Assembly: GCA_902168205.1 (NCBI GenBank)
Contig: CABHOK010000003.1
Span: 62,001 to 126,000, forward strand
DNA from: an uncultured Chitinophaga sp.
Lineage (GTDB): Bacteria; Bacteroidota; Bacteroidia; Cytophagales; Cyclobacteriaceae
DNA length: 64,000 bases
Direction: 5' to 3'
Below the pieces are notes generated by a model. That model saw only the letters and a list, made by a program, of their open reading frames with translations, had not been told where the DNA came from and did no database searches. How positions within the stretch are numbered: the stretch's first letter is position 1; every line of letters starts with the position of its first letter. The position numbers were made by a program, and so were the translations under genes. Below are positions 15,679-18,069 of the stretch, piece by piece.

Positions 15679-16070
15679 ATGAAGAAATTTTATGCTTTGA
15701 TAATACTTTTAGTCTGTGCGACAGAATGTTTCGCATGTGTATGTTGGTTTCCTACAGATAAGAAAGCATTAAAAAAGAGGATCAAAGAGGCAGACGTAAT
15801 ATTGTACGTATTGGCTATGGCAAGAAATCTCCATGTAAAGATGCTGTTTATAGAATAGGCGAACGATATATAATATTTGGCTACACCAATAAAGAGACCG
15901 GTGAGTTGGAAGCCAATAACTGTACTGGTCTTTCTGAACACACAATGTCGAGTGTTCATGATAAAATAGTGATGGAGTCAGAGGATTTTAACTATGAAAG
16001 TTATAGCGAGGCTAGATTGCAAGAAAAAGAAGAATTTGAATCTGTTAAGAGGCTGATAAGTAAGCTGTAA
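15679..16070 (+). pseudogene. Broken exported protein, NTR/TIMP-like
   Basis: The first part (ATG 15679) reads as a signal peptide followed directly by CVCWFPTDKKALKKRIKEADVILYV; a Cys-x-Cys at the start of the mature protein recalls NTR/TIMP-like domains. After about residue 45 this frame runs into unrelated sequence and stops at 15858. The neighbouring frame carries the expected C-terminal half (CKDAVYRIGERYIIFGYTNK, then NNCTGLSEH) to TAA 16068-16070. About 50 residues between the halves seem to be missing, so I infer an internal deletion plus frame shift. The IS element begins 14 bp after the stop. Confidence 0.65.
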
Positions 16071-16111
16071 TAGTTAAGACTTGATCTGACAGTTGAGCTA
16101 AGCTGGCCTTC

Positions 16112-16246
16112 CTTCCTCACAGGCAAAGGTAGCCACCGCTCCAAAGAAGTCAAGGGCTTCGCGAGTGGCCGCGCAAGGGCTGTCGCACAGCCGAAGCCAC
16201 CCTTGACTTCTTTTCGGCTTGCGGCTGTTTGCGGCCTATGAGGAAG
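16112..16246. repeat. Long nested palindrome inside the IS left end
   Basis: Outer arms CTTCCTCA/TGAGGAAG (16112-16119, 16239-16246), middle arms of 14 bp (16143-16156 and 16200-16213, AAAGAAGTCAAGGG), and an inner hairpin GGCTGT-CGC-ACAGCC. GC-rich unlike its surroundings. It lies downstream of the transposase and could act as a terminator or insulate the element. Confidence 0.7.
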
Positions 16247-16262
16247 TAATGCGATAGTATAC

Positions 16263-17312
16263 TCATGCCGATTGATAGTTCTTATCAATCATTTTAGTAG
16301 TAGCTAATTCTTTAGAGGCGACAAAGGTTTCCCAAGGTGTTCTTCCAAAGCAGTGCTTTCCTGAGTGCGTTCTCTGTTCATTATACTCTTCAATCCATTG
16401 GTCGAGATCCTTCTGTAATGACTCTAACGACTCATAGAGCTTCTTTCGAAAAGCTATAGCATAAAACTCATCTTGTATAGTTCTATGAAAGCGTTCGCAA
16501 ATACCATTACTCTGTGGGCTCTTGACTTTTGTTTTAGAGTGTTCAATATTTTCGATCTGCAGATATAGTTCATATTCATGGTACTCCGCTTTACCGCAGT
16601 ATTCTGTACCACGATCGATTAATATTCGTAGCAATGGAATTTGTTGCTCCTCGAAGAATGGCACGACTTTATCATTAAGCATATCAGCTGCTGTGATAGC
16701 ATTCTTGCGATCATATAGTTTAGCGAAAGCTACTTTTGAATAGGTGTCGATAAAGGTCTGCTGATAGATTCTGCCAACACCTTTAATGTTGCCGACATAA
16801 TATGTATCCTGAGCTCCAAGATACCCAGGATGTTCAGTCTCGATTTCACCAGAAGCTTCACGTTTCTCTCGCTTCCTTTCCATAGCAATCATCTGCGCTT
16901 CGGTAAGAATAAGTCCTTCTTGAGCCACTTTAGCTTCGAGAGCAGCTAAGCGTTTGGAAAATGTTTCCATATCATGACGCTGCCATACACAACGAACGCC
17001 ACAAGGAGATATAAATATACCACGCTTGCGTAGTTCATTGGATGCACGAACTTGACCTAGTGCCGGCTGTTCGGTAGCAAGTAAAACAACGGCTTCTTCT
17101 ACATGAAGCTCAACTCGATTTTTAGGAAGGGCTTTTCTCCGACTTACTTCTTTAAGGGCGAGTTCACCTCCGGTATCATACAACTCTTTGATGCGATAAA
17201 AACTGTCGCGTGAATATCCCATCATACGACATGCCTGGCTTACATTACCTAAATGTTCAGCAAGATTGATTAGACCTAGTTTGGTTTTGATTAACTTCGT
17301 TTCTGTTCTCAT
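16263..17312 (-). CDS. IS481-family transposase
   Basis: 349 residues, full length. An N-terminal helix-turn-helix region (NVSQACRMMGYSRDSFYRI) is followed by a DDE integrase-core domain: first Asp in AQDTYYVG, second in LIDRGTEYCG, and the Glu in SPQSNGICERFHRTIQDEF. These are the catalytic residues that cut and join DNA ends. The C-terminus has the YNEQRTHSG and TPWETF features of the family. No frameshift or stop, so the element is probably active or recently so. Confidence 0.95.
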   Translation of the reverse strand: MRTETKLIKTKLGLINLAEHLGNVSQACRMMGYSRDSFYRIKELYDTGGELALKEVSRRKALPKNRVELHVEEAVVLLATEQPALGQVRASNELRKRGIFISPCGVRCVWQRHDMETFSKRLAALEAKVAQEGLILTEAQMIAMERKREKREASGEIETEHPGYLGAQDTYYVGNIKGVGRIYQQTFIDTYSKVAFAKLYDRKNAITAADMLNDKVVPFFEEQQIPLLRILIDRGTEYCGKAEYHEYELYLQIENIEHSKTKVKSPQSNGICERFHRTIQDEFYAIAFRKKLYESLESLQKDLDQWIEEYNEQRTHSGKHCFGRTPWETFVASKELATTKMIDKNYQSA

Positions 17313-17436
17313 TTTCTGACAGTTTAATGGGTTTAACTTTTTTAGTTTGCACTTCTAAGTTAACCCAACTGTCAGATTAAGTCGGAACTACTTCAAGTAA
17401 GCAAACCAGGCGGTAACTTGTAACTGTTTCTACGTT

Positions 17437-17484
17437 GGCTCTCCCTTTTTGCTCCTCCTCTTGGACTGATTACAGTCAGATGCT
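17437..17484 (-). repeat. Fragment of tRNA-Asn with its 3' flank
   Basis: This segment repeats the 3' end of the tRNA-Asn at 17942-18015 plus part of its terminator flank: GGCTCTC...GCTCCTCCTCTTGGAC, then, after loss of about 17 nt, GATTA-CAGTCAGATGCT. The gap removes the T-loop region, so it cannot be a functional tRNA. The adjacent GIY-YIG frame ends inside it. Confidence 0.8.
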
Positions 17485-17883
17485 TGTTTTTTTTATTTTC
17501 TCCATAAGCTCGGGATGTTCTTTCAGCTTACGAATGAATACAGTACTCTTCTTGGCTTTGATTAGCTTCTCAAGTTTAAGTGCATGCCGTTTATCATTAC
17601 AAGGTATAGCTATATACAATTGCCAGGGAATTCCTTTTGCAGTGTATTTTATTCGATTGATAGGATTGTTATGCTGAAAGATTCTTTGCTCAAGATCTTC
17701 AGTCATTCCAGTATAGACGGTCGATTCTTTCTGAGTAACTGCCAAGGAATTCCCTTAGCAAGTAAATTTTATCCGGCTAATAGAATTGTTATGTTGACGA
17801 ATCCTTTGTTCGAGGTTCTCAGTCATTCCAATATAGTATCGGTCAGTAGATGACGAGTAAAGAATGTAAGCACAATAACTCAT
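17476..17883 (-). pseudogene. GIY-YIG nuclease gene with internal duplication and stop
   Basis: ATG 17883 starts a normal GIY-YIG (URI-type) domain (YILYSSSTDRYYIGMTENLEQR...), but TAA at 17755-17757 ends it after 42 residues. The frame then resumes in register with a second copy of the same region (TVYTGMTEDLEQRIFQHNN...) and the rest of the domain to TGA 17476-17478, 89 residues from TTG 17745. So the N-terminal half is duplicated, each copy partial: copy two lacks the first tyrosine segment. Family members cut DNA and are common small Bacteroidota proteins. The final codons are tRNA-derived. Probably inactive. Confidence 0.8.
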
Positions 17884-17912
17884 AACGAATCAAAACAACT
17901 ACACAATAAAAA

Positions 17913-17931
17913 AGCCACCGGACTGGTGGCT
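17913..17931 (-). terminator. tRNA-Asn terminator
   Basis: AGCCACC pairs with GGTGGCT across a 5-nt loop, followed on the minus strand by TTTTTTATTG. It lies 10 bases past the tRNA 3' end. Confidence 0.8.
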
Positions 17932-17941
17932 CTCTCTTTTG

Positions 17942-18015
17942 CTCCTCCTCTTGGACTTGAACCAAGGACCCTCTGATTAACAGTCAGATGCTCTAACCAG
18001 CTGAGCTAAGGAGGA
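17942..18015 (-). tRNA. tRNA-Asn (GTT)
   Basis: 74 nt on the minus strand. The 7-bp acceptor stem TCCTCCT/AGGAGGA, the D arm (AGCTCAGCTGGTTAGAGC), the anticodon loop CTGTTAA giving anticodon GTT, and the T arm GGTTCAAGTCC all fit. The discriminator base is G and CCA is not encoded. Its 3' end points to the accessory region on the left. Confidence 0.95.
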
Positions 18016-18036
18016 ATTCGTTTGAATTTGGGAGTG

Positions 18037-18069
18037 CAATATTACGGACTTGTGGTTTAAATTTCAAAA
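18037..18069 (-). promoter_or_regulatory. Promoter of tRNA-Asn
   Basis: On the minus strand TTTTG (18065-18069), 20 nt, then TAATATTG (18037-18044), close to the Bacteroidota consensus TTTG/N19-21/TAnnTTTG. Transcription would start roughly 15 nt before the tRNA. Confidence 0.6.

Follow-up and report, generated by a model that had tools for sequence, protein, structure and literature searches.

The tRNA-Asn gene and the broken nuclease gene beside it in the window, as we call the whole stretch of 64,000 nucleotides of DNA under analysis, form a decayed member of a family that is widespread in Bacteroidota. We consider it probable that the feature is a degraded copy of a chromosomal mini-element targeting tRNA genes, a free-standing unit of the homing type that repairs its own target. 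The initial annotation of this DNA had favoured a mobile, tRNA-targeting mini-element, and this is still the best reading on account of the enrichment of related genes beside tRNA genes, the tRNA fragments on their far side and the sister genomes that differ in occupancy.

The Locus in the Window and Its Congeners

The features of the locus, all on the minus strand, are the following:

17941-18015, minus strand: intact tRNA-Asn gene, anticodon GTT (ARAGORN; Rfam tRNA, 69.6 bits)
17908..17930, minus strand: terminator-like hairpin (GCCACC..GGTGGC) and T run (read directly; same layout in relatives)
17755-17883, minus strand: first (N-terminal) piece of the GIY-YIG gene (PF01541, E 9.1e-9)
17476-17745, minus strand: second piece of the GIY-YIG gene (PF01541, E 9.5e-10)
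17625..17836, minus strand: internal direct repeat as a whole, with its copies at 17625-17716 and 17745-17836
17451-17484, minus strand: displaced remnant of a second tRNA-Asn, 34 nt (sequence comparison with congeners G001 and G005)
16066..17395, minus strand: IS481-family insertion, a neighbour outside the element (transposase and terminal repeats)

The joint presence of an intact tRNA-Asn, a tRNA-Asn fragment and a duplicated GIY-YIG gene, which the initial annotation had recognized, is agreed upon by ARAGORN, Rfam, PF01541 and the direct repeat. The hairpin and T run sit directly after the intact tRNA-Asn, ahead of the start of the GIY-YIG gene, both pieces of which belong to the GIY-YIG superfamily (PF01541, 39.1 and 35.9 bits, cut-off 22.6). 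The first piece has AYI in place of GIY, keeps YIG, R and H, and ends at the TAA of 17755-17757, which is preceded by a frameshift relative to the second copy; the second piece has no first strand and retains YTG, R, H and E. The window copy is broken between the two pieces and is very probably a pseudogene. The direct repeat measures 92 nt at 73% identity, its copies lying 120 bp apart, and out-of-register recombination best explains the two pieces; repeated unequal recombination, invoked earlier for the locus at large, is needed for these duplicated halves only.

The second piece ends in ACA-AGC-ATC-TGA, in which AGC ATC TGA is already tRNA sequence; the last codons and the stop of the nuclease do lie within the tRNA fragment, as had been noticed. 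The fragment is real, but its tRNA-derived part amounts to 34 nt, the 48 bp given originally taking in flank. One T of the anticodon loop and an internal block of 17 nt are absent from this remnant, which has a similar 3' flank. The window genome holds a single GIY-YIG locus of this kind, with its two broken pieces, and its other two PF01541 matches are in frames of 615 and 459 aa. Searched as DNA against the same genome, positions 17400-18060 found no second tRNA-Asn, other tRNAs aligning at only 76-85% over 53-80 bases. The remnant is adjoined by the IS481-family transposase (16263-17312), whose element has imperfect terminal inverted repeats of 36 nt (16066-16101 and 17360-17395).

At the orthologous site, the congeners G001 and G005 have a tRNA-Asn, a terminator, an intact GIY-YIG gene of 96 codons and a displaced tRNA copy, in this order. 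Their GIY-YIG stop falls in the same tRNA codon as in the window (TGA in G001, TAA in G005), and this agreement between two congeners, together with equivalent structures at other tRNAs, argues that a GIY-YIG stop inside a tRNA is not a matter of chance. In the displaced copies of both, nucleotides ~43 to 50 are swapped for TCCCGATAGTTATCGGGA or TCCCGATGGGCATCGGGA, and these copies bear an 18-bp palindromic hairpin that is gone from the window. Taking the stretch between two AGTCC repeats out of the G001 copy reproduces the window junction, with one T and one repeated triplet differing nearby. As this operation yields the junction, the missing 17-nt block, which had been correctly noted but ascribed to unequal recombination, would be best accounted for by a subsequent, secondary deletion between the AGTCC repeats, in which the hairpin was lost as well. 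Another congener, G004 (locus L164, C6), was considered as an empty counterpart of the window site and rejected, since an assembly gap (N) starts just past its tRNA-Asn terminator; G005 carries a repeated element where that gap begins. G002, G003 and G006, which have a tRNA-Asn with no GIY-YIG gene within 1.5 kb but do not share the context shown by the window, were likewise dropped as empty sites.

Linkage to tRNA Genes and Isotype Matching

Relatives were surveyed by a PF01541 search of 59 related genomes, which gave 104 listed matches with an open frame shorter than 200 aa and 93 fetched loci; the set excludes longer frames and unlisted weaker matches and includes a few truncated pieces of UvrC. 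A tRNA gene on the same strand lies within 600 bp of 58 of the 104 matches, namely 57 of 68 of the tRNA type versus 1 of 36 of the other type, a split that is partly circular because linked proteins had served to build the tRNA-type HMM. The density of tRNA genes around tRNA-type genes is 0.748 per kb within 600 bp versus 0.0124 per kb beyond 1.2 kb, and around other-type genes it is 0.020 per kb near and 0 far. Eleven of the 68 tRNA-type genes have no tRNA within 600 bp, three of them being at contig edges. Unlinked GIY-YIG genes belong mostly to a second subfamily, according to a quick tree of few columns that does not use the tRNA-type HMM and requires 10 label changes versus 31.4 after shuffling. 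Four genes (L056, L083, L086 and L088) form a small clade near the tRNA type and have no tRNA or Rfam RNA in the flanks examined. The initial annotation had made its hypothesis depend on whether GIY-YIG genes are enriched near RNA genes; enrichment was found and the hypothesis stands. Its wider statement, that small GIY-YIG genes accompany RNA genes, holds for tRNA genes in the relatives and across the phylum but not for rRNA genes: Rfam scans of 48 loci (44 with the 46 unlinked matches plus 4 linked ones) yielded tRNAs alone, and rRNA or other RNA genes were rejected as targets of the element.

The linkage recurs in 24 of the 30 best family-wide matches of the intact Asn-type protein (window included), in 28 of 36 loci from named records and in 28 of the 30 top phylum-wide loci (a set to which the window and a few family-sample genomes belong), with the qualification that the samples overlap, since the window and several genomes recur in them and the named set partly coincides with the unnamed one, that the loci were picked by protein score and not at random, and that the alignments used in the named-record and phylum scans (A1 and A2) were made from tRNA-linked members or closest matches. 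All but one of the 36 named records come from Bacteroidota, and the sole KSB1 record has no tRNA. The Asn-type protein is matched in 309 of 390 genomes of the family sample (E<=0.001, distant GIY-YIG genes included), and alignment A2 in 153 of 296 genomes of the phylum sample (E<=1e-8).

After removal of identical proteins, which was confined to this test, the nearest relative in another genome shared the tRNA isotype in 50 of 64 cases, whereas permutation gave 10.8 on average and never more than 25 in 2000 runs. GIY-YIG lineages tend to stay with one isotype; the other 14 of the 64 have their nearest relative at another isotype, exceptions which indicate that switching occurs.

Organization of the Repeated Unit

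The unit of the tandem arrays spans ~0.3-0.45 kb and contains a tRNA gene (or part of it) with its terminator, a GIY-YIG gene of ~80-100 codons and an incomplete second copy of that tRNA, in which there is usually a short palindromic hairpin. Such a copy, of at least 20 nt, lies on the far side of 62 of 83 genes versus 3 of 189 random control windows, bearing out for the surveyed relatives the expectation of tRNA fragments at GIY-YIG copies; the remaining 21 genes have no far-side copy of that length, and the test drew on 188 GIY-YIG matches, 105 of which lack a tRNA in the adjoining 150 bp (other-type genes, contig ends, second copies in arrays). When the tRNA is upstream, a collinear copy is present in 54 of 74 genes and represents mostly the 3' part; when it is downstream, the corresponding figure is 8 of 9 and the fragment is mostly the 5' part. 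The mirror order of 5' tRNA fragment, GIY-YIG gene and intact tRNA is seen in L043, L061, L076, L090, L091, L099, L194 and L214, at tRNAs for Leu, Arg, Ser, Pro and Asn. Tandem arrays with near-identical units are frequent and cannot simply be an artefact of assembly, because they are present in single-contig genomes, such as G706 (L372) with five units beside tRNA-Asp and G639 with seven copies.

Inverted repeats in the 62 far-side copies have arms of at least 6 in 55, at least 7 in 43 and at least 8 in 30. Mononucleotide shuffles of these copies reach the same lengths in 14%, 3.6% and 0.9%, values that overstate the contrast because intact tRNAs have inverted repeats too; the fairer control is given by 113 intact tRNAs, with 39, 17 and 3, against which the hairpin excess is clear from arms of 7 upwards. 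Identity between intact tRNA and copy, estimated by local alignment (mean 0.92, n=65), was set aside since gaps at the hairpins blur the values. The palindromes vary, frequently resembling CGATAGCTATCG with outer bases that match, and replace a few tRNA bases at recurrent positions (0-based nucleotides 43-51 in many Asn, 35-40 in many Met and 52-60 in many Thr copies). Replaced bases fall in loops in 69% versus 47% expected (n=41), a modest excess among cases that are not independent.

In 1.0 Mb of survey sequence, 26 of 29 TCCCGA-N-TCGGGA palindromes are situated at most 400 bp from a GIY-YIG match. An exclusive association with the element was rejected, as palindromes with the same core are dispersed genome-wide (0-64 per genome in nine genomes versus 0-5 for the backwards control); G007 and G112 have 64 copies each versus 1 each for the backwards pattern. 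The pseudo-tRNAs of L123 and L158 show a hairpin nested in the loop of another hairpin, as if palindromes inserted into stem-loops. In L237 and L242 (tRNA-Thr of genus g103), L063 (tRNA-Asp) and L251 (tRNA-Lys), hairpin-bearing pseudo-tRNA units follow one another with no nuclease gene between them, at times with a spacing of ~46-93 bp, and units of this type are possible non-autonomous derivatives.

Occupied and Unoccupied Sites

The GIY-YIG gene can be present or absent at the same site in close relatives, as expected for a free-standing homing gene. At the tRNA-Thr site of one genus we read 30 orthologous sites (59 genomes searched), seven of which have a GIY-YIG match, three of these being visibly truncated or interrupted, and four other sites hold pseudo-tRNA scars; scars are borne by several unoccupied sites. 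The cleanest empty and occupied pair is that of L244 and L242, which are 97% identical upstream: L242 has a clean insert of 156 bp ending in a hairpin-bearing pseudo-tRNA, behind which the post-tRNA flank of L244 resumes, the native 3' flank having been displaced. The L242 unit has no nuclease gene, and hence derivatives lacking the nuclease exist. The intact tRNA of L219 has another type of terminator behind it, and its pseudo-tRNA is trailed by the type that stands after the intact tRNA in L221 and L228, both of which have no GIY-YIG gene. At the tRNA-Asn site of another genus, 30 loci comprise one that is occupied (G262), seven with a tRNA-Asn and no GIY-YIG gene, and 22 with no tRNA-Asn there.

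Three tRNA-linked GIY-YIG loci were fetched from each of the sister genomes G378 and G321, and none is shared, one short match of G321 lying outside the set. At tRNA-Ala (L324 vs L342) the GIY-YIG gene is present in G321 and absent from G378, with flanks that are 97.6 and 97.9% identical; 3.0 kb versus 1.0 kb separate these flanks, and more than the element differs. At the G321 site, 27 nt from the start of a tRNA-Ala also survive ahead of the intact tRNA. At tRNA-Arg (upstream identity 96.2%), two tRNA types have exchanged states, the type that is intact in G378 being broken by a hairpin in G321 and vice versa; the comparison of these sequences indicates that the tRNA genes themselves have been replaced here, in one direction or the other.

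Phage and plasmid collections contained no relative of the intact Asn-type protein (tblastn, E<=0.01), and an origin from phages or plasmids was rejected on this result. IMG/VR returned 17 loci of 28-46% identity, several of them close to tRNA genes on viral contigs; the distant GIY-YIG relatives at L295-L303, within 3 kb of tRNAs, may represent a reservoir or a parallel.

The Nuclease Protein

Most homing endonucleases carry a separate DNA-binding domain. The proteins of this family consist of a single GIY-YIG domain of ~80-100 aa, with no separate DNA-binding domain, a point that counts against a homing mechanism; Y6, Y17, G19, R27, H31 and E65 are invariant in 30 of 30 relatives. A structure model of a relative (pLDDT 92.5) finds its nearest solved structures in Slx1 (one Foldseek match at E<=0.001) and UPF0213, I-TevI being weaker. 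The median dN/dS is 0.20 over the 29 tRNA-type pairs for which it could be computed, out of 121 (the other 92 being mostly saturated), and two pairs have values of at least 1; judged by this ratio, the protein is under purifying selection, as expected for an enzyme in use. Alignment with T4 SegB by hhalign (single-sequence template) gave a probability of 2% and an E value of 0.022 over the first 26 columns only, and a relation to the SegB family beyond the superfamily motif was not found. No PHROG matched at E<=0.001. Annotation as a defence protein was rejected, since PADLOC gave only weak matches for the intact relative and none for the window protein.

A Proposed Mechanism and Its Alternatives

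Linkage to tRNA genes, isotype matching, the displaced tRNA, the exchange of flanks and tRNAs, turnover, tandem growth, decay and purifying selection are all apparent from the sequences compared. In the mechanism that we propose, an isotype-matched nuclease lineage would cut an unoccupied tRNA gene of its cognate isotype, and repair of the break would copy the element in, with the tRNA itself serving as homology. The product, as seen in relatives, would be an intact tRNA with a 3' part and terminator brought by the element (or wholly replaced), the nuclease gene, and the displaced end of the tRNA with the native flank. The hairpin observed in most displaced copies may inactivate them. Tandem amplification of the unit, remnants that have lost the nuclease, and decay complete the cycle and are all seen in the loci compared. 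In the window, recombination has probably made the nuclease gene a pseudogene and a deletion has taken the hairpin away; an IS481 insertion lies beside the copy.

At two sites, Thr (L219/L221) and Ala (L324/L342, 77/77), the carrier and its unoccupied relative have an intact tRNA of identical sequence. A nuclease reading the tRNA sequence alone should then cut its own carrier, and the simplest version of a homing enzyme that spares its own allele is spoken against. The conflict would be resolved if recognition extended to the flank or to a structure, if expression were held back, or if the enzyme worked in another way; a recoded tRNA was rejected as the general source of immunity at these two sites. 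A bolder form of the mechanism, which we regard as doubtful, is that the nuclease destroys an essential tRNA gene of the host and the element supplies a working tRNA, on which the host becomes dependent. If true, this would be a bacterial cleave-and-rescue selfish element, and the hairpin would be a scar by which the displaced tRNA stays dead and escapes cutting. The reciprocal replacement of tRNA-Arg in G378 and G321 fits such a takeover, and so does the detection of just one tRNA-Asn in the window genome; given the identical Thr and Ala tRNAs, the takeover would need a source of immunity that is not recoding.

Much of the tandem structure might also arise by local unequal recombination only, if a resident GIY-YIG gene beside a tRNA were duplicated and deleted with no movement and no role for the nuclease; the frequency of near-identical units and the two GIY-YIG pieces of the window, which fit out-of-register exchange best, agree with this. 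Yet such exchange leaves unaccounted for the different terminator at the intact tRNA and the local type behind the pseudo-tRNA, and does not provide for swapped tRNA-Arg types between sisters, for the lack of shared fetched sites between sisters whose flanks are 96-98% identical, or for isotype-matched lineages across genera, and we consider it distinctly unlikely as the whole explanation. Alternatively, the mobile entity could be the palindrome, settling like a REP element in the loops of expendable tRNA copies, with the GIY-YIG protein as mobilizing enzyme or bystander. The genome-wide dispersal of same-core palindromes, the nested hairpins of L123 and L158, the loop preference of replaced bases and the structural proximity to Slx1, a nuclease of branched DNA, all point this way. 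That loop preference is modest, however, and its items are non-independent; moreover, 11 of 16 sampled genome-wide palindrome loci have no tRNA or tRNA-like flank, and G019 combines seven PF01541 matches with zero TCCCGA palindromes, its pseudo-tRNA having a different one. We judge this explanation unlikely.

The least probable of the alternatives, to which we give very little credence, is adaptive amplification, whereby the nuclease would multiply a tRNA segment for dosage, for instance against tRNA-cutting defence systems or toxins. It draws on the amplification of tRNA-segB segments by SegB in phage T6 (PMC13096335), and the arrays seen here look similar. However, the extra tRNA copies are mostly truncated or hairpin-broken, so that the dosage of working tRNA should not rise, the protein shows no relation to T4 SegB past the first motif, and the lineages here are isotype-matched, whereas SegB is reported to have no isotype preference (PMC13096335).

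Relation to Known Systems and Significance

The closest published system that we found for the tRNA-targeting element is SegB, a phage homing endonuclease of the GIY-YIG class whose gene lies beside tRNA genes (PMC13096335). The free-standing GIY-YIG genes of T-even phages resemble the present ones in lying on the same strand among tRNA genes (between tRNA-Ile and tRNA-Arg in T4), and the same paper describes amplification of segments around tRNAs (PMC13096335). T4 SegB is viral and has 221 aa, whereas the present proteins, of ~80-100 aa, are chromosomal and isotype-matched, and their element restores an intact tRNA and leaves a displaced copy that is mostly hairpin-broken.

Genomic islands and integrative elements use the 3' ends of tRNA genes as attachment sites. 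The restored tRNA 3' end and the fragment at the far end (62 of 83 genes) are features held in common with them, but the present unit is smaller than 0.5 kb, has no room for an integrase, encodes a GIY-YIG nuclease and carries a hairpin in the displaced copy; in the loci inspected the GIY-YIG frame fills the space between intact and displaced tRNA. RAYT proteins are the transposases of REP elements. The latter are short palindromes dispersed through the genome (PMC3733652), and are in this respect comparable with the palindromes enriched at our element, which differ in being embedded in tRNA copies and in having a GIY-YIG enzyme beside them. UPF0213/YhbQ and Slx1 are host proteins that share the GIY-YIG domain and provide the nearest solved structures by sequence and fold; unlike them, the present genes are patchy, tandem and tRNA-linked. 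Full-text searches of a library with few subscription papers and preprints retrieved no report of the bacterial family; it is best read as a group of free-standing homing-type genes for which we found no earlier description.

If this reading is right, the elements would be among the smallest protein-coding mobile elements of bacteria, residing inside essential tRNA genes across a phylum. They would rewrite the 3' ends of tRNAs, their terminators and sometimes whole tRNA genes, and could explain the arrays of tRNA pseudogenes in Bacteroidota genomes. Their isotype-matched lineages, their pairs of occupied and unoccupied sites and their hairpin positions, as predicted cut sites, would offer natural experiments on the long-term survival of a nuclease gene whose target is essential.
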